From Candidatus Nitrosotenuis chungbukensis (lineage in GTDB: Archaea > Thermoproteota > Nitrososphaeria > Nitrososphaerales > Nitrosopumilaceae): a DNA stretch of 64,000 nucleotides. Location: contig NZ_AVSQ01000016.1 in assembly GCF_000685395.1 (NCBI RefSeq), forward strand, positions 1 to 64,000, in the 5' to 3' direction. Each line of letters starts with the position of its first letter. Within the stretch, counting starts at the first letter, position 1. The position numbers were made by a program, and so were the translations under genes. Under the pieces are notes generated by a model. The model saw only the letters and a program-made list of their open reading frames with translations, was not told where the DNA came from and did not search any database. This document shows, piece by piece, positions 40,967 to 51,915 of the stretch.

Positions 40967-42694
40967 TTGACGACCATGACTAACTTTGGTACATTAGAAT
41001 ACGTTCTGGACAAGTTTTCAGGCACGTGGAGCTGGAAGGTAACTGGGGAGCGAGCAGTGGCAATGGTGTCTAGAATCATCCCACAAGCGTGGTATGGCGA
41101 TGGCGAGTTTGAGGCAATAGTCCCAGACGATCCGAAAAACGTACTGCAGATAAAATGGATAATGGACAGATACCCACTTGAAATACTCTCAAAGACAACT
41201 TGGCAAAAAAAGCTCCCAATCACCACAAAGCCTGAACCAAAAAAGCCAAAGAGAATTGAAAAGCTGCAGCTGGCAAACCCTGGAAAACAGTTCAAGGGGA
41301 ACCTGCTGAACTTTCAGAGGGAGGGCCTTGACTTTCTGATAAAATCGTCTGGGAACGCACTGCTTGCCGACGAAATGGGTTTGGGGAAAACGGTCGAGAC
41401 ATTATCCTATATCGGAACAGAGCAAGGAACGTTTCCAGCACTGATTGTTGCCCCGCTTGTGACCCTGAACAACTGGCAGAGAGAAATTGAAAAGTTTTTG
41501 AAACTAAAAAGCAGAAACGGCAGACTGATTGATGACAAACCGCCAACCTCGACAATTATCCGCGTTGGAAAATCCGAGGATTTGGGGAAATATGATTTTT
41601 ACATAATCAACTATGAATTGTTGTTCAAGCGATACAAGGACCTGGCCAAGCTAAACCTGAAAACAATCGTGTGCGACGAGGTGCAGAATCTTCGCTCAAA
41701 AACTACGCAAAAATATCATGCGATAAAGAAACTCTCCGCGCTGGAATCTGTAAAGTACAGAATTGGTCTTTCCGGCACTCCGATATACAACCGCGGCTCT
41801 GAAATTTGGCCAATAGTTGACATCCTTCGCCCAGGACTGCTTGGGAGCTTTAAGGAATTTTGCGAATATTTCTGCTACATAAATGAAAAAGGAAAGGCGA
41901 TCGTACTTGAAAACAAGCGAGAGTCTCTCAGAAACATGCTGCAAAAGCACGTCATGCTCAGAAGAAAGAAAACCGACGTGCTGCAAGAGCTCAAAGAAAA
42001 AATCCGGCACAAGGAGATAATCGACGCAGACATCAATTATTACAATAAGGAGCTTGAAAAAATCTGGAAAAAACTTGAGGATGATAGAAAGGCAGCGCAG
42101 AATGCGTTTGACGCATCAACTGCATATCAGAGAGCAATCCAAAGCGAGCGACAGGTGGCAGGTGTTGCCAAGCTGCCGCACGTGATTAATTTTGTTAAAA
42201 ACATAATGGAAATCGAGGAAAGCGTAGTCGTCTTTTGCCATCACAAGGCAATCCACTCGCTGCTCCACCAAGCACTTGCAGAGTTCAAGCCTGCATCTAT
42301 CATTGGGGGACAGTCTGACAAGGAACGACAGAACAGCATTGACACATTCCAGAACGGCGAGACCAAACTGATGATTGCCGGGCTGCGCGCAGGAAACGTC
42401 GGAATTAATCTGACTCGCGCAAAATATGTGATATTTGCCGAGCTTGACTGGAGTCCTGCAATACATCTGCAAGCAGAAGACCGATTGCACAGAATTGGGC
42501 AAAAGAGCACGGTATTTGCTTACTACCTGATGGGCAACGGAACACTTGATGAACACGTTGCGCGAGTCCTTGTGGACAAGAGCTACGAAATAGACGCAAT
42601 AATGGACAACAAGGTGGAATCGTTTGAAAACAAAGAAAAGGCAGAACTGATTTTGGCGCAAATCCACGACAAGATCCGCTCCATTACAGGCTAG
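40967..42694 (+). CDS. SNF2/SWI2-family DNA-dependent ATPase
   Basis: 575 residues (start TTG 40967, or ATG 40976). N-terminal ~95 residues are unique. Helicase motifs: I L-A-D-E-M-G-L-G-K-T, II C-D-E-V-Q (usual D-E-A-H), III G-L-S-G-T-P, then R-R-K-K-T-D-V-L, V-V-V-F-C-H-H, G-L-R-A-G-N-V-G-I-N-L-T, and VI D-R-L-H-R-I-G-Q. Compact SNF2 proteins of this size, SMARCAL1-like, remodel DNA structures such as stalled forks. A small Cys/His-rich gene lies on each side. Confidence 0.9.
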   Translation: MTTMTNFGTLEYVLDKFSGTWSWKVTGERAVAMVSRIIPQAWYGDGEFEAIVPDDPKNVLQIKWIMDRYPLEILSKTTWQKKLPITTKPEPKKPKRIEKLQLANPGKQFKGNLLNFQREGLDFLIKSSGNALLADEMGLGKTVETLSYIGTEQGTFPALIVAPLVTLNNWQREIEKFLKLKSRNGRLIDDKPPTSTIIRVGKSEDLGKYDFYIINYELLFKRYKDLAKLNLKTIVCDEVQNLRSKTTQKYHAIKKLSALESVKYRIGLSGTPIYNRGSEIWPIVDILRPGLLGSFKEFCEYFCYINEKGKAIVLENKRESLRNMLQKHVMLRRKKTDVLQELKEKIRHKEIIDADINYYNKELEKIWKKLEDDRKAAQNAFDASTAYQRAIQSERQVAGVAKLPHVINFVKNIMEIEESVVVFCHHKAIHSLLHQALAEFKPASIIGGQSDKERQNSIDTFQNGETKLMIAGLRAGNVGINLTRAKYVIFAELDWSPAIHLQAEDRLHRIGQKSTVFAYYLMGNGTLDEHVARVLVDKSYEIDAIMDNKVESFENKEKAELILAQIHDKIRSITG

Positions 42695-43080: not shown

Positions 43081-44556
43081 CTAGACATTAGCATACATTG
43101 CAACTTCCCACGCTGTAGGAATTTGTGCAAACGCTGAAAATTCTTTCTGTTTTATTGAACAATACACATCAAGAAAGTCTTTTGTAAATGTAGCCTGTAA
43201 AAAATCATGGTCACATTGCAGTGCATTTATTGCGTCTTTTAATGTAAGTGGCAGTGACGTAACTCCGTAGTTTCTCTTTTGCTCATCTGATAATTTGTAT
43301 ACGTTTTCTTCAACGGGATCCCCCGGATCTATTTTTTTCTTAATTCCGTCCAAACCTGCAAGGAGTAAGCCTGCTTCTAGAATGTATATGTTTGAAGTTG
43401 CATCTGGTATTCTGTATTCTATTCTTTTACTTTTTTCAGAGTTATGCGATGTTGGCACTCTGATTGCGACTGATCTATTGTTTATTCCCCAGCAAACGTT
43501 TACTGGTGCTTCAAAATTTGGAATTAGTCTTTTATACGAATTGGTAGTTGGGTTTGAAATCGCGCAAAGTGATGCTGCATGAGAAAGAATCCCTCCTATG
43601 TAGTATCGACCAATCTGACTTAGCCCGTTTTCATCGTCCTGATCATACATCCTGTTTCTATCTTTCTGCCATAAGCTCTGATGAATGTGCATGGCAGAAG
43701 CGTTATCCCCGTAAATTGGTTTTGGCATAAATGTTGCAATCTTGTCCTTACTAGCTGCCTTTACTTTGACTAGATTTTTTATGGTGATTACGTTGTCTGC
43801 CATGGCTGTCATTTCATCATGTCGAATATTCAACTCGCACTGTCCACCAGTGGCTACTTCATGATGCTCTGCTTCGATTCTCATTCCAAAATATTTGTGT
43901 AGATCATCACAAATGTCTTTTCGCAACGAATTTGTTGTGTCTATTGGCTGCGCAGTATAGTATCCGTCTTTTAGGCTCACCGTCGTTCCAACGTGTTTGT
44001 CTGCCCATGGTGCCTCCTTTGATTCGATATGGTATCCAGCTCCACCATATGGCTGAATTGCGCCAATTGACGATGGAAACAACTTGATACTGTCAAAAAT
44101 AAAAAATTCTATTTCAGGACCGAACCTGGCTTCAGTAAAACCAAACGCCATCATCTCATTTTTCGTCTTTTTTAATATGCCTCTAGAGTCTCGACCGTAT
44201 CTATCTGTGCTCTGGACACTTCCATCGTATACGTCAACAAACATTCTCGCATTTCTTCTATTTTCATTATCATAGTATGGGGGAAGAACCTTGTATGTTG
44301 AAATGTCTGGCAACAACAGTAAATCTGATTTATTGATGGGGCTGAACCCTCTAACTGAACTTGCATCAAGTTTATCAAATCCGTCTTTAAAGTGTTCTAC
44401 ATTTAGGGAATATGATGGAATCCCAATACAATGAAGCTCTCCAAATATGTCTGTAAACCACATGCTTACAAAATCAATCTTGTCGTTTTCAATTTTTTTA
44501 ATTATGTCGTGAGACGCATTGTCCAATGACGTGTTATTTTCGGTAACGTCACTCAT
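43081..44556 (-). CDS. Divergent glutamine-synthetase-family enzyme
   Basis: 491 residues. GS core residues are present: E-I-E-F (148-151), E-x-E-H-H-E-V-A (228-235) with G-Q, and K-R-I-E-Y-R. Two motifs around the glutamate site differ from classical GlnA: D64-A-S-S-V-R-G-F where D-G-S-S is usual, and G-D-N285-A-S-A-M-H where N-G-S-G-M-H is usual. The usual C-terminal R-P-H-P-x-E segment is also replaced (Q-I-P-T-A-W-E). The start ATG overlaps the mscS stop by 4 nt (44553-44556). GS joins ammonia to a glutamate-like acid; the changed pocket and operon context suggest an alternative substrate, possibly beta-glutamate. Confidence 0.8.
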   Translation of the reverse strand: MSDVTENNTSLDNASHDIIKKIENDKIDFVSMWFTDIFGELHCIGIPSYSLNVEHFKDGFDKLDASSVRGFSPINKSDLLLLPDISTYKVLPPYYDNENRRNARMFVDVYDGSVQSTDRYGRDSRGILKKTKNEMMAFGFTEARFGPEIEFFIFDSIKLFPSSIGAIQPYGGAGYHIESKEAPWADKHVGTTVSLKDGYYTAQPIDTTNSLRKDICDDLHKYFGMRIEAEHHEVATGGQCELNIRHDEMTAMADNVITIKNLVKVKAASKDKIATFMPKPIYGDNASAMHIHQSLWQKDRNRMYDQDDENGLSQIGRYYIGGILSHAASLCAISNPTTNSYKRLIPNFEAPVNVCWGINNRSVAIRVPTSHNSEKSKRIEYRIPDATSNIYILEAGLLLAGLDGIKKKIDPGDPVEENVYKLSDEQKRNYGVTSLPLTLKDAINALQCDHDFLQATFTKDFLDVYCSIKQKEFSAFAQIPTAWEVAMYANV

Positions 44557-45425
44557 GTCTTTTCATGCGTTTCCGTGGATTTGTCTGTCTCGTACTGCTT
44601 TGCATTTTCAGCATAATGTATGATTCTCTGCGGAAATGGGATTTCTATTCCCTCATCATCTAGTGATTTTTTAATTGTCTTGAGCAAAACTGGCCCAACC
44701 TGGTCCCACTCGTCCCGTGGAATCCAGGCTAACACCTTTAGATTTACGCTTGAATCCCCAAGACTTTCAGTCCAAACAGCTGGCTCGGGCTCGCGTAACA
44801 CAAATGGTAGTCTTTCTAGGGATTTTTTGATTACCTCGATTACGTGATCAATATCCTCCTTGTATGCGATTCCCAATGTGACATCTACCCTTCGTATCTC
44901 GCTTCCTGAAACATTCCGTATCTCTGACGTGAATACTTTTTCGTTAGGAACCCGAACAATGGATCCATCGAACATCTTTATTCTTGTTGAGAATATTGTA
45001 ATGTCCATCAGTTTTCCGTAAACCTTGCTGTCGGTGATTTCAATTAAATCGCCTACCTTGGCGGGTCTGTCAAACATTAGGAAGATGCCTGAAATTAGGT
45101 TTGATACAACTGACTGGGTCGCAAATCCAATTATTATTCCAAATATTCCTCCCGCCACCATTAATCCGCTCAGGTCTATCCCCTGGCTCGTGATTACAGC
45201 TAAAAGGGTAACAACTATGATTCCGTAATAGATTATTTTGTGAAAGCTTTTCGCGGTATTTTCTGGAAGGTTTGCTGAAACATATCTTTTGAATATGATG
45301 CTGACTGCTCGTGCAAATATGACGCCTGCCACCATGATTAGAATTCCAATTATCAGCGAGTCAATGAACACTTCTTTTCCCATCACGTTGATGGACGTTG
45401 CATTTGTAAACAATTCAAAAACCAT
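44553..45425 (-). CDS. mscS: MscS-type mechanosensitive channel
   Basis: 290 residues. Three N-terminal helices are followed by the pore helix and beta domain: I-I-G-F-A-T-Q-S-V-V-S-N-L-I-S-G-I-F-L-M-F-D-R-P and V-G-D-L-I-E-I, the MscS signature, then I-F-S-T-R-I-K and V-R-V-P-N-E-K-V-F. MscS opens under membrane tension and releases small solutes. The stop overlaps the start of the GS-like gene, and the start shares its base with the end of the DUF432 gene, so the three are translationally coupled. Confidence 0.92.
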   Translation of the reverse strand: MVFELFTNATSINVMGKEVFIDSLIIGILIMVAGVIFARAVSIIFKRYVSANLPENTAKSFHKIIYYGIIVVTLLAVITSQGIDLSGLMVAGGIFGIIIGFATQSVVSNLISGIFLMFDRPAKVGDLIEITDSKVYGKLMDITIFSTRIKMFDGSIVRVPNEKVFTSEIRNVSGSEIRRVDVTLGIAYKEDIDHVIEVIKKSLERLPFVLREPEPAVWTESLGDSSVNLKVLAWIPRDEWDQVGPVLLKTIKKSLDDEGIEIPFPQRIIHYAENAKQYETDKSTETHEKT

Positions 45426-46192
45426 TAACTAAACCCCCATTCCATGGAAAATTTGTAATCTGTTTTTTTAATATTTCTGGGAGCTAATGACCAATTGTCT
45501 GGCGTTGCTATTGGCTTTTGCACAACTTCTATTATTTTCAGCCCTCCCCTGTTCTTTATCTCGATCCTTAGTTCATCCATCATCACATTTTCACCGTTGT
45601 AGTAAAGATCATGGTCTGATGCAGGAATGATGATTTTTCCGACATGTACTGACTCTTCTAATTCGTTCTCGACTGCGATTCTTAGATCCGTGTGCACTAA
45701 GGGAGACTGTGTGTTTTTGTCAACAAATGAAGGTGTTTTTGCATACTTGCACAATCTTCCCTCTTCGGGCGTACCATACAGGCCAAACCTAGAATTGCTT
45801 GGCTCACACGAAAAACAATCGAGCATGTCCGTCTGTTCATCATTAATCAAAAATATTCCAATTTCTATGGGAAATGGTACTGTTAATTCTGTGGTGGATT
45901 TACCGCTAATGAAAATGGGGTCTGTGAATCTGATGAAAACAAAATCTGTCTTGTATGTAGGTAGGTGAATTGGCAGAACCGGTGCTATCTCGATTTCAAG
46001 ATCTCCTGCTCTGCAATGGATTATGTTCTTTGTAGTTTTGTTCTCTGAGTCGTTTCTAACATAAGAAAATTTGTCCTTGTCCACTCTGGAAAATAGTATC
46101 TTGTTTTTTGATATGGTTAGGGTTGTATCGTTTTTTATAATTTGTTTTCCAAACTTGAAATTATTTGACTCTGAGCTGCTCACTGATTTCAT
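45425..46192 (-). CDS. DUF432-family protein
   Basis: 255 residues, cytoplasmic, beta-rich. P-I-F-I-S-G-K-S-T-T-E-L-T-V-P-F-P-I-E-I-G-I-F is the DUF432 core as I recall it. An acidic Cys-containing loop (M-L-D-C-F-S-C-E) follows. DUF432 genes are often next to MscS in archaea, and here the two are adjacent and overlap by one base. The biochemical role is unknown; a channel partner or regulator is a reasonable inference. Confidence 0.7.
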   Translation of the reverse strand: MKSVSSSESNNFKFGKQIIKNDTTLTISKNKILFSRVDKDKFSYVRNDSENKTTKNIIHCRAGDLEIEIAPVLPIHLPTYKTDFVFIRFTDPIFISGKSTTELTVPFPIEIGIFLINDEQTDMLDCFSCEPSNSRFGLYGTPEEGRLCKYAKTPSFVDKNTQSPLVHTDLRIAVENELEESVHVGKIIIPASDHDLYYNGENVMMDELRIEIKNRGGLKIIEVVQKPIATPDNWSLAPRNIKKTDYKFSMEWGFS

Positions 46193-46227
46193 ATCTCTAT
46201 TAGCCCTTATTGTTGCTTTTGTCTGTT

Positions 46228-47760
46228 TTATGGAAAGTTTTTTTTGCCTATTTGCTGAGTGTTTAATCCCTGTCTGTCCTCAAACTCTTTTTTTCGCTTT
46301 AACGCAATGATGCTTGTGGTCTCATCTCTTAGCAATTTGTTTGTTTTTGATATTTTGCCTGATTTTTTACCAAATTTATGGATGATGTTGTTGATGAGAT
46401 GCCCTTTATTTTCTGATTTTTTCTGCGATGATATCTTGCCAAATCCTTCCTCGAAAAAGAACTTGTTGCCCGTAAACGGTTTTAGCTCATCAATCCATAT
46501 TGCATTTTCATCATATTTTGCCAAAAATGGCTTTTGTACCCAAGTGGGATCTCTTCCCTGTAAAAACCTCATTGCAATAGCCTTCTTTTTTCCAATATCG
46601 ATGACTCCGAGAACCTGGATCTTTCCTGGCGTTGCAGACATGCTTGGGCCTCTGACTGTCCTACATAATCCGCTTACTTGTTGATATGCATCACGAAATA
46701 TCTCCTGGGCCTTTACAAGTGGCACCCCGAAGAAATGCTGTGCACCCGTGTCTCTTGCAACAAACATGTAATATGGGACGCAGCCCAGATTGACCTGTTT
46801 TTTCCACATATCTGCCCACGTTTTTGCGTTGTCATTTATGTGTGCTAGAATTGGAGATTGGGTACGTATCTGTGCCCCTGTCTTCCTGATCAGTCTGATG
46901 GCCATCTCTACTGACTTTGTGGATAATTCTCTTGGATGATTAAAATGTGCCATGAATGCAAGATGGATTCCTCTTTTGGTGATTTTCTCAAACAATCGTA
47001 GCATTTCATCAGAGTCATCGTCACTGAGAAATCGATACGGCCAGTATCCTAATGCCTTTGTTCCAATTCGAATTGTTTTTAGATTTGGGAGATCTGCGTC
47101 TAGCAAGGAATTGACATATTCTGAGAACAATTTGGTCTTCATTATCATCGGATCTCCACCAGTAAACAACACGTCTGTTACACTGGGATTTTCTTTTATG
47201 TATTGGACTAGTAATTCGGATTCTCGCATTGCAAATTTTAACTCGTTCATTCCAACAAATTGCGGCCATCTGAAACAAAATGTGCAATATGCGTGGCATG
47301 TTTGACCCTGACTTGGGAAGAACAGTACCGTTTCCTTGTACTTGTGTTGCATTCCATACAATTTTGTCCCGTCTTTGAGCTGTGGCACATTGTGCTCCAT
47401 CTGGCCTGCCGGGTGAGGGTTTAGTTGTAATCTGATCTTATTTGCAGTTGTCTGTATTGTTTTTTTATCTCCGTTTTCCATGGCCTTGACCATTTCCTTA
47501 AAATGCTGTGGTCGCAGCATTTCTTTTTGAGGAAATGTCAGAACGAATATTGGATCATTTACTGCATCGTCCCAGTCGATGAGGTTTTCTACAACATAAT
47601 TGTTAACTTTGAAGGGTAAAACATTGGCAACTACCTCCATCTCACGCTGCTTTTCAAAAGAAATGTTTCGCATCTGGGGAATTTCTCTAAAATTGTTAAT
47701 CCCATACGATTTGTACTTTGGAGGGTCTGACTCGTTCCACAAATCATCAAATTTTTGCAT
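46228..47760 (-). CDS. KamA-family radical SAM aminomutase, lysine-site residues replaced
   Basis: 510 residues. The radical SAM cluster motif is C155-x3-C159-x2-C162 (C-H-A-Y-C-T-F-C-F). The region V-P-Y-Y-M-F-V-A-R336-D-T aligns with the lysine 2,3-aminomutase segment whose Asp293 binds the lysine side chain; here that position is Arg. The PLP lysine region reads S373-M-S-A-T-P-G-K380, where Asp330 is replaced by Ser and Lys380 is the likely Schiff-base lysine. As I recall, glutamate 2,3-aminomutase likewise has a basic residue at the first of these sites. It probably converts an acidic alpha-amino acid to its beta isomer. It is the first gene of the operon and lies 35 nt before DUF432. Confidence 0.78.
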   Translation of the reverse strand: MQKFDDLWNESDPPKYKSYGINNFREIPQMRNISFEKQREMEVVANVLPFKVNNYVVENLIDWDDAVNDPIFVLTFPQKEMLRPQHFKEMVKAMENGDKKTIQTTANKIRLQLNPHPAGQMEHNVPQLKDGTKLYGMQHKYKETVLFFPSQGQTCHAYCTFCFRWPQFVGMNELKFAMRESELLVQYIKENPSVTDVLFTGGDPMIMKTKLFSEYVNSLLDADLPNLKTIRIGTKALGYWPYRFLSDDDSDEMLRLFEKITKRGIHLAFMAHFNHPRELSTKSVEMAIRLIRKTGAQIRTQSPILAHINDNAKTWADMWKKQVNLGCVPYYMFVARDTGAQHFFGVPLVKAQEIFRDAYQQVSGLCRTVRGPSMSATPGKIQVLGVIDIGKKKAIAMRFLQGRDPTWVQKPFLAKYDENAIWIDELKPFTGNKFFFEEGFGKISSQKKSENKGHLINNIIHKFGKKSGKISKTNKLLRDETTSIIALKRKKEFEDRQGLNTQQIGKKNFP

Positions 47761-47891: not shown

Positions 47892-48146
47892 CTAGTATGT
47901 CGTGCTATCTATGGCCTCTAATGTCATTGTGTACTTTATGGAGTCCAATGATCTTATTTTATGATTAAACATGTGCTTAAACTCTTCATCTGTTTTTGAC
48001 TCAACCTTGATGATGATGTCATACAAACCGTCAGTAGATCTAATTTCCTTAACTGAGCTAATTTTTTGCAAATGTTCGATTGTTTTGCCAGTTTCTCCAT
48101 CTGTACAGCTTATCAGGACAAACATGGTTGGGCCTGATTCTGACAT
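47892..48146 (-). CDS. Stand-alone Lrp/AsnC effector-binding (RAM) domain
   Basis: 84 residues. The alpha-beta sandwich of Lrp effector domains is seen in M-F-V-L-I-S-C-T-D-G-E, V-K-E-I-R-S-T-D-G-L-Y-D-I-I-I-K-V and M-T-L-E-A-I. There is no N-terminal helix-turn-helix, so it may sense amino acids and pair with a full-length Lrp such as the one at 57 kb. It lies 131 nt upstream of the aminomutase gene on the same strand. Confidence 0.8.
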   Translation of the reverse strand: MSESGPTMFVLISCTDGETGKTIEHLQKISSVKEIRSTDGLYDIIIKVESKTDEEFKHMFNHKIRSLDSIKYTMTLEAIDSTTY

Positions 48147-48580: not shown

Positions 48581-49138
48581 ATGACAAATGACTACAAGTC
48601 TGAAAAAACCGAAACTGTTACTGCCAGGATTAACAAGCAGACTCTTGACAAATTAAGGTCTTATGCTAAATCTGAAAACACCACTCTTAATTCTGCAATA
48701 AACCAATTACTTTCACACGCAGTTGATTGGGATGTTGTTGCTGCCAAGACAAGCTGGATCCCAATTCCGAAGGATATCCTGATATCGTATTTTGACAAGC
48801 TGGATGACGCTACAATAATTGCAGTAGCTGAAGAAAGCGGCAAACATGTGCCAAGAGACATGCTTCTTGCTATGCGGGGCAAGCTTAATGTAAAAGAATG
48901 GATATCAATCCTAAGAAGCAGGGCAAAAGCCTCTGGGTTTCACTATGCAGAGATTTTGGAAGATGATCATGTCAAATTCATCATGAAGCATGACATGGGA
49001 ATGAAATGGTCGATCTATTTTCAAACATACTATATCTCCTCATTTAGCATGCTGGGATGTGACGCTGAATTTAGTATTACAAATAATACCGTCTCTTACC
49101 GAATAAACAAAAAAGACTATGATCCGGATGATGCATGA
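48581..49138 (+). CDS. RHH-domain regulator with C-terminal sensor-like domain
   Basis: 185 residues. RHH strand E-T-V-T-A-R-I-N and helices Q-T-L-D-K-L-R-S-Y-A, L-N-S-A-I-N-Q-L-L-S-H-A-V-D-W are followed by W-I-P-I-P-K-D and a ~130-residue domain. Its layout matches the protein at 6130-6687. The C-terminal domain is unassigned; both genes probably bind DNA as dimers and respond to a signal through it. An inverted repeat overlaps its promoter. Confidence 0.7.
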   Translation: MTNDYKSEKTETVTARINKQTLDKLRSYAKSENTTLNSAINQLLSHAVDWDVVAAKTSWIPIPKDILISYFDKLDDATIIAVAEESGKHVPRDMLLAMRGKLNVKEWISILRSRAKASGFHYAEILEDDHVKFIMKHDMGMKWSIYFQTYYISSFSMLGCDAEFSITNNTVSYRINKKDYDPDDA

Positions 49139-50610: not shown

Positions 50611-51915
50611 TCATTCCATCTCGTCGTCTTTGGTTTCCCTACTAAGCATGGTTGGCACGATGACGATTACTGCGCCGATGATTATGTTTGCGCCAAGCGC
50701 AAAAGGAATCATGCTTTTCTCAACACTTGACATGAGACTCAGCGCAATCAATGGAGACCATGACCCGAAAATCAATCCTGCATTGTATGAGAAACCAGCA
50801 GCACTGTTTCTTACCTGTGTTGGGAATCTTTCAGAAAAAAACGCAGGGACTGGACCTGATGCAGTTGACACAACAAAAGCAAACACTACGATGTATATGA
50901 TGACAAGATTCGTTTTGTTTAAGATTGCATCTGCAAGCGGCACTGACAATGCAACTGACATCATGACAAAAACCAGCATTGCTTTTTTTCTTCCTGTTTT
51001 TTGAGAAAGCCAGCCCGTAACTATCATTCCAATCCAAGATGACGCAGTTGCATAGATCATGATTCTTGCAACGTCTCCTTTGTCAAATGTTCCAAACTGC
51101 TGCAGGTATGTGGGCAAAATGCTAATGGATCCGTGATACATGTAAACCAGGCCCGTCATTATGGCTGCGCACAAAAAGAACTCTTTTCTGTATTTCTTGC
51201 CCAGGACTATGGTTCTCAGTGGCGATCTCTCAAGTGCGCCTGCTTTGTTTTTTTCAGCCCACAACGGGGATTCATTCATGCTTAACCTGACAAACAGTGC
51301 CACAAAGCCTGGGATTATCCCTGTGAAAAACAAGACCCTCCAGCCTATCTCCTCAAACATCTGCCCGGGAAACATCCAAGTTGTGATCTCAAAGGCAATC
51401 GCTGCCAGCAAAAATCCGAACGAAAAGCCGCTCTGCAAGAACCCTGATATCAGCCCCCTTTTTTGCTTTGGAACGCTTTCCATTGTTATGACTGCGCCAC
51501 TGCCCCATTCCCCACCTGCAAAGATTCCCTGAATAAGGCGAATCATCACAAGAAGAATTGGGGCCATGATTCCTATGGCTGCATATGTTGGCAACAGGCC
51601 GATTGCAAACGTGGCAACTGAAAAGCCGAGAATTGTAATCATCATTGATCTTTTTCTACCAAACTTGTCGCCGTAAATTCCAAAAATCACCGATCCCAGA
51701 GGCCTCATTATCAAAGTAATTGTGTATGACGCAAATGTTGCCATTATGCTAAAAACTGGGTTGTCAGATGGGAAAAACAGCTGACTGATGGATGGGATGA
51801 CAAGAAGCATCAAAACTATGTCGTACCCATCAAGTGACCACCCAAGAAAAGATCCAACCGCGATTTTCTTTTGAGCGCCTGTTAGACTCAACAGACCATT
51901 GGCGGTATGTCCCAT
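50611..51915 (-). CDS. MFS transporter, metabolite:H+ symporter type
   Basis: 434 residues, 12 helices. The MFS signature is G-D-K-F-G-R-K-R-S in the first cytoplasmic loop. The N-terminus (S-F-L-G-W-S-L-D-G-Y-D-I) and G-G-E-W-G-S-G-A-V place it with the metabolite:H+ symporter family (ShiA, KgtP, ProP relatives). The substrate is a carboxylate, aromatic acid or compatible solute; which one cannot be read. Divergent from the Ig-like gene that follows. Confidence 0.88.
   Translation of the reverse strand: MGHTANGLLSLTGAQKKIAVGSFLGWSLDGYDIVLMLLVIPSISQLFFPSDNPVFSIMATFASYTITLIMRPLGSVIFGIYGDKFGRKRSMMITILGFSVATFAIGLLPTYAAIGIMAPILLVMIRLIQGIFAGGEWGSGAVITMESVPKQKRGLISGFLQSGFSFGFLLAAIAFEITTWMFPGQMFEEIGWRVLFFTGIIPGFVALFVRLSMNESPLWAEKNKAGALERSPLRTIVLGKKYRKEFFLCAAIMTGLVYMYHGSISILPTYLQQFGTFDKGDVARIMIYATASSWIGMIVTGWLSQKTGRKKAMLVFVMMSVALSVPLADAILNKTNLVIIYIVVFAFVVSTASGPVPAFFSERFPTQVRNSAAGFSYNAGLIFGSWSPLIALSLMSSVEKSMIPFALGANIIIGAVIVIVPTMLSRETKDDEME

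Follow-up and report, generated by a model that had tools for sequence, protein, structure and literature searches.

Several described systems link β-amino acids to osmotic adaptation. Glutamate 2,3-aminomutase (EAM) has been linked to β-glutamate as an osmoprotectant (PMC9337991; PMC7835215), and in Methanohalophilus portucalensis the glutamine synthetase (GS) amidates β-glutamate to the osmolyte β-glutamine (PMC1224877). Early nuclear magnetic resonance (NMR) work on methanogens excluded an aminomutase origin of β-glutamate, and a coenzyme A (CoA) route was put forward (PMC1224877); therefore an aminomutase route to this compound in archaea would be new. According to Heal et al. (2021), β-glutamic acid is, at 730 mM, the most abundant identified metabolite of Nitrosopumilus maritimus SCM1, and the strain was examined because β-glutamic acid increases with ocean depth and is absent from phytoplankton (PMC8269262). 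The text of that paper, as searched, names no gene or pathway for β-glutamate. Here we analyze a four-gene locus in a stretch of 64,000 nucleotides (nt) from Candidatus Nitrosotenuis chungbukensis (contig NZ_AVSQ01000016.1, positions 1 to 64,000; hereafter the window), an archaeon of the family Nitrosopumilaceae. We propose, with a probability of about 0.72, that this locus serves both the production and the handling of a compatible solute of the β-amino-acid type, with two enzymes for its synthesis, an MscS channel for its release and a DUF432 protein that helps the channel.

All four genes lie on the minus strand. The first encodes a KamA-family radical S-adenosylmethionine (SAM)/pyridoxal phosphate (PLP) aminomutase (46228..47760, 510 amino acids (aa); NCBIfam/Pfam Radical_SAM/KamA), the proposed glutamate 2,3-aminomutase or β-glutamate synthase. 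It is followed after a gap of 35 nt by the DUF432 protein (45425..46192, 255 aa; Pfam), a canonical small MscS channel (44553..45425, 290 aa), which is the proposed turgor valve, and a type I GS paralogue (43081..44556, 491 aa; Gln-synt N and C domains), the proposed β-glutamine synthetase; these last two junctions are overlaps of 1 and 4 nt. The open reading frame (ORF) coordinates agree exactly with the order and spacing given in the first-pass annotation. The genes are full length and show 60-93% conservation across dozens of genomes. Given these full-length genes and the near-invariant substitutions in their families, the pattern of the locus is not due to chance.

The aminomutase and its predicted substrate

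A phmmer alignment to lysine 2,3-aminomutase (KAM; PDB 2a5h), repeated with MAFFT, places R336 at KAM Asp293 and S373 at KAM Asp330, which bears out the replacements named in the first-pass annotation. The Arg is present in all 79 close homologues and in 20 of 20 further ones from Bacteroidota (99/99); the Ser occurs in 79/79 and 18/20 of the same sets (97/99), the other two having Val. The cysteines of the CxxxCxxC motif (C155/C159/C162) and the PLP lysine K380 (= KAM K337) are invariant among the aligned homologues. Two control KamA proteins drawn from outside the family but within its order (L134, L135; L-numbers denote loci and G-numbers genomes of the comparison set, G000 being the genome of the window) retain Asp/Asp. 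Therefore the Arg/Ser change marks the aminomutase clade and not archaea generally.

The AlphaFold model of the aminomutase found 2a5h as the best match in the whole PDB (E=1.6e-16, 392 columns, probability 1.00, TM-score 0.52/0.64); its C-terminal extension (about 448-510) is poorly predicted. The top NCBIfam scores come from KamA/AblA models, below their cut-offs (AblA 120 bits vs 525), and for each of the three substrate models (lysine, arginine and glutamate) the score stays far under the cut-off. Membership in the glutamate aminomutase subfamily TIGR04368 was ruled out by score (85 bits vs 650). Judged from these sequence comparisons, the protein is a KamA enzyme of an unnamed clade.

The glutamate enzyme of Clostridioides difficile (Ruzicka and Frey 2007) reportedly has Lys/Asn at the positions of Asp293/Asp330. 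The window enzyme likewise combines a basic residue at the first position with an uncharged polar one at the second (Arg/Ser). The predicted pocket thus resembles the one reported for the known glutamate enzyme in charge, not in identity. Genome G089, which we take to be that of N. maritimus SCM1, has adjacent genes for the aminomutase and the GS paralogue, with an MscS-family gene next to them. Together with the 730 mM β-glutamate found in this organism (PMC8269262), this makes glutamate, already favoured in the first-pass annotation, the well supported best candidate for the substrate. We consider the first step, the formation of β-glutamate from glutamate by the aminomutase, highly probable on these residues and the metabolite data. 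Among the titles and abstracts covered by our literature search on aminomutase and Nitrosopumilus (subscription papers lie outside this scope), none treats or names the present gene.

Among archaea the aminomutase was found only in Nitrosopumilaceae. It is present in 103 of the 136 genomes of the family that are at least 90% complete, and a survey of the whole phylum detected it in 38/300 genomes, every one from this family. A homologue also occurs in Bacteroidota (25/198 genomes). In the phylogenetic tree the archaeal aminomutases are nested within those of Bacteroidota, with weak support at the deciding forks; the clade is shared with Bacteroidota, and this weakly supported topology is suggestive of transfer. 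The Bacteroidota genes mostly stand alone, and a PF00155 aminotransferase follows or lies nearby in six of the eight best loci. In L074, L076, L078 and L080 (Phaeodactylibacter-like and other Bacteroidota) this class I/II aminotransferase comes directly after the aminomutase homologue or one small ORF further on. In a single Bacteroidota genome, G370, the homologue is directly preceded by an MscS gene (L245:4228-5130), apparently an independent pairing.

The glutamine-synthetase paralogue and the second step

The GS paralogue carries the motifs LDASS (D64-S67 for DASS) and NASAMH (285-290) in place of DGSS and NGSGMH, as had been noted in the first-pass annotation. These replacements are near-invariant in the paralogue clade of 56 sequences: in the numbering of the S. 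Typhimurium enzyme, which we use for these and the catalytic positions, Ala265 and Ala267 occur in 56/56 and Ala51 in 55/56 (one Ser). Other archaeal GS (n=19) have Gly51 in 19/19, Gly267 in 18/19 and either Gly (10) or Ala (9) at position 265. The catalytic residues E129, E131, E212, E220, H269, R321, E327, R339, R344 and R359 are retained, and the protein passes the NCBIfam cut-off of the GlnA family (501 bits vs 429). A second, ordinary GS with 43% identity to the paralogue is encoded in the same genome, at C9. Positions 51, 265 and 267 flank Asp50 and fall in the loop 264-269, which holds glutamate in bacterial GS; because of this placement, a changed substrate of the paralogue is plausible.

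The distribution of the two enzymes points in the same direction. The aminomutase is present in 76 of the 78 genomes with the GS paralogue vs 27 of the 58 without it (2x2 Fisher p=1.9e-12, a value that ignores shared ancestry). On the complete chromosomes of G085, G140 and G141 the two genes are far apart, and the co-occurrence is therefore not only a matter of linkage. The argument that the aminomutase and GS genes had decayed together in G018/G027 was considered and dropped; the aminomutase stops seem to be read-through past the gene end, and only the GS of G027 looks broken.

The synthesis of β-glutamine by the paralogue, as judged from its pocket and its distribution, has in our view about an even chance of being correct. 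The best of the alternatives accepts only the first step. The aminomutase would make β-glutamate, and the paralogue would have some other role: ammonia assimilation as a second GS, regulation, or γ-glutamyl ligation to a different amine. For N. maritimus, where the paralogue is present, β-glutamate and not its amide is reported (PMC8269262), although the published metabolite list may have had no β-glutamine standard. It also speaks for this explanation that many genomes have the aminomutase alone and that Gly265Ala is found in ordinary archaeal GS; however, the paralogue is nearly restricted to genomes that bear the aminomutase, is usually adjacent to it, has fixed pocket changes and exists beside an ordinary GS. 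We regard a locus with the first step only as a serious contender, albeit at somewhat less than even odds. The route from glutamate via β-glutamate to β-glutamine, as outlined in the first-pass annotation, thus stands in part: its first step is well supported, and the second moderately, by the pocket changes and the co-occurrence.

A further explanation concerns the substrate of the aminomutase itself, which could be another acidic or polar amino acid (2-aminoadipate, glutamine or another), with β-glutamate arising by another route. In favour of this, the enzyme does not fall into the characterised EAM subfamily, and for methanogens NMR had excluded that β-glutamate comes from an aminomutase, a CoA route being suggested instead (PMC1224877). 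However, the present enzyme is the only KamA of its genome, the second match scoring a negligible 17.8 bits, and aspartate would yield no new product. Moreover, the characterised glutamate enzyme of C. difficile reportedly also has a basic residue where KAM has Asp293 (Lys/Asn). We consider a different substrate unlikely and retain glutamate as the predicted one.

MscS channel, DUF432 and gene order

The small MscS protein scores above the cut-off for PF00924 and PF21082 (beta and C-terminal domains) and just below it for PF21088 (TM2/3; 21.4 vs 23.1). The four-gene order, which the first-pass annotation had suggested looking for in other thaumarchaea, turned out not to be general. It occurs in four genomes of one genus, namely G000, G016, G013 and G004, the last three with an Lrp-like gene before GS. 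The first three genes alone are found in two more genomes of this genus, G005 (GS elsewhere) and G009 (GS missing). In other genera the aminomutase gene is divergent (head-to-head) from a gene for an MscS-family protein of ~578 aa in 70 of 72 loci; this protein (e.g. L005:4095-5828) carries the MscS beta and C-terminal domains. Of the remaining two, L002 has DUF432-MscS upstream and L014 is at a contig end. A GS gene follows the aminomutase in about half of the loci in these genera.

With the window genome set aside, each of the 71 Nitrosopumilaceae loci that could be tested has an MscS-family gene within about 3-4 kilobases (kb) of the aminomutase. The association of MscS with the aminomutase takes the form of two arrangements with different MscS families. 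Eight genomes checked contain 1-5 MscS genes each, and for G013 and G034 no MscS gene was found other than the one beside the aminomutase.

Of the 22 DUF432 genes from the phylum, 20 have a small MscS gene as their immediate neighbour (window 45425-46192; loci L194-L212), which makes the protein a candidate MscS partner. Its model is all-beta, with a predicted local distance difference test (pLDDT) score of 88.9; a fold search of the PDB gave no match below E=0.04, and the literature searched contains no mention of DUF432. The window operon is an enzyme pair joined to an old DUF432-MscS cassette, and this combination is confined to the genus of the window.

The osmotic context assumed in the first-pass annotation is well supported by independent metabolomics, the 730 mM β-glutamate given for N. 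maritimus (PMC8269262). Na+/H+ antiporter genes occur near several aminomutase loci. We think it fairly probable that MscS serves the release of a pool of β-amino-acid solute. As a separate observation, many loci of Nitrosopumilaceae encode an amino-acid permease (AA_permease_2) downstream of the paired aminomutase and GS genes (L006:9588-10883 and the loci of cluster 16).

It is also conceivable that no shared function unites the four genes, and that MscS and DUF432 are a housekeeping pair which ended up in the operon. This would agree with the age of the DUF432-MscS cassette, which is apart from KamA in most of the phylum, and with the limitation of the four-gene order to one genus. It does not agree with the overlapping reading frames, with the different MscS family that adjoins the same aminomutase in all other genera, or with the MscS gene of G013 and G034 that is the sole one found. 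Such a chance neighbourhood is in our estimate quite improbable.

Further genes surround the operon. A stand-alone Lrp/AsnC ligand-binding (RAM) domain (47892..48146, minus strand, 84 aa) is encoded immediately upstream of the aminomutase. It probably belongs to the locus, because a related protein is encoded between MscS and GS in G016, G013 and G004, and it may be an amino-acid-sensing regulator. A 185-aa protein (48581..49138, plus strand) is divergent from the aminomutase, and its position is kept in five genomes of the same genus. It matched no family; its N-terminus reads like a ribbon-helix-helix, and it is a possible regulator. About 3 kb upstream of the locus is the gene for an MFS metabolite/H+ symporter (50611-51915), which is kept in G009; its top NCBIfam model is TIGR00883, with ProP among the weaker matches, and it could be a solute transporter. 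A gene for an SNF2-type helicase (40967-42694, plus strand) adjoins the locus and is also kept in G009.

Overall assessment and comparison with known systems

The explanation that survives least, that of a lysine 2,3-aminomutase in Nε-acetyl-β-lysine synthesis, the label which automated annotation would give the gene from its highest, albeit sub-cut-off, NCBIfam scores (KamA/AblA models), was rejected as extremely improbable, in line with the first-pass annotation, since both lysine-binding aspartates are replaced clade-wide and kept in the true archaeal homologues (the D/D controls), and since a single KamA gene together with no match to AblB (the ablB acetyltransferase) in the five genomes searched leaves no such route.

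Several observations weigh against a dedicated β-amino-acid solute locus. The aminomutase has a score of 85 bits against a cut-off of 650 for TIGR04368 and is thus outside the known EAM subfamily; its substrate is therefore deduced from two residues and the metabolite data, and the glutamate activity of the clade is a prediction. Ala265 is present in 9 of the 19 ordinary archaeal GS, so that only A51 and A267 are distinctive of the paralogue. β-Glutamine is not reported in these archaea in the literature searched. There are 27 genomes with the aminomutase and no GS paralogue; G125 and G136 (L189 and L188; fragmented, 91-94% complete) are the only genomes with the paralogue in which no aminomutase was found. 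The aminomutase alone is common and the paralogue alone rare, which is the pattern that a downstream step would show. In G012, from the genus of the window, the aminomutase has no adjoining MscS, DUF432 or GS, and the Bacteroidota homologues are, with one exception, without GS or MscS neighbours. Finally, the genus of the window probably includes low-salinity organisms, in which a large anionic solute pool is less obviously needed.

The proposed mechanism is as follows. Using radical SAM/PLP chemistry, the KamA-family enzyme would shift the C2 amino group of L-glutamate to C3, yielding β-glutamate. The side-chain carboxylate would be held by Arg336, at the place where Asp293/Asp330 of lysine 2,3-aminomutase bind the ε-ammonium. 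The GS paralogue would then amidate β-glutamate with ammonia and ATP (adenosine triphosphate) to the zwitterion β-glutamine, for which no K+ counter-ion would be needed; lineages without the paralogue would keep β-glutamate itself. MscS, helped by DUF432, would open under turgor, so that the solutes leave on downshock. Both reactions, the substrate of each enzyme, the role of DUF432 and the release of this particular solute by MscS are the parts that we infer.

The locus very probably holds the missing β-glutamate-making enzyme of marine and soil ammonia-oxidizing archaea. It points to the aminomutase as a single testable candidate, whose residue signature allows metagenomes to be screened for it. 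A candidate for the second enzyme and a proposed role of DUF432 come with it. A more ambitious version is offered tentatively, as somewhat less than an even bet: Nitrosopumilaceae would have a dedicated pathway from glutamate via β-glutamate to β-glutamine, with a new aminomutase clade possibly from Bacteroidota and a substrate-changed GS, tied to a turgor valve (plus, in the genus of the window, DUF432 as a hitherto unassigned MscS partner), and this pathway would be the source of the deep-ocean β-glutamate pool. Nitrosopumilaceae are among the most numerous cells of the ocean. If the proposal is true, two nitrogen-rich solutes, β-glutamate and β-glutamine, can be traced genetically in a group that ranks among the most abundant of all organisms; this would bear on dissolved organic nitrogen and on the salinity response of these archaea.

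The locus shares features with each of the systems described. Like EAM (TIGR04368; C. difficile, Moorella), the aminomutase has KamA radical SAM/PLP chemistry, and a basic plus a polar residue replace the two lysine-binding aspartates. Unlike EAM, it has Arg/Ser where Lys/Asn is reported for the C. difficile enzyme, belongs to a separate clade shared with Bacteroidota and sits with a GS paralogue and MscS. The arrangement also resembles AblA/AblB of methanogens, in which a KamA enzyme makes a β-amino-acid osmolyte and a second enzyme neutralises its charge, both from one operon; it differs in the substrate residues, in having no AblB and in the proposed amidation by GS instead of acetylation. 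In M. portucalensis it is the cell's own GS, with unusual properties, that makes β-glutamine, whereas the candidate here is an additional, dedicated GS whose pocket changes are specific to its clade. The channel has the Pfam MscS domains in common with MscS of the E. coli YggB type, and here it is co-operonic with a solute pathway and DUF432. The β-glutamate pool of N. maritimus (PMC8269262) comes from the same archaeal family and supplies the product, as a metabolite only; the present locus adds candidate genes to it.

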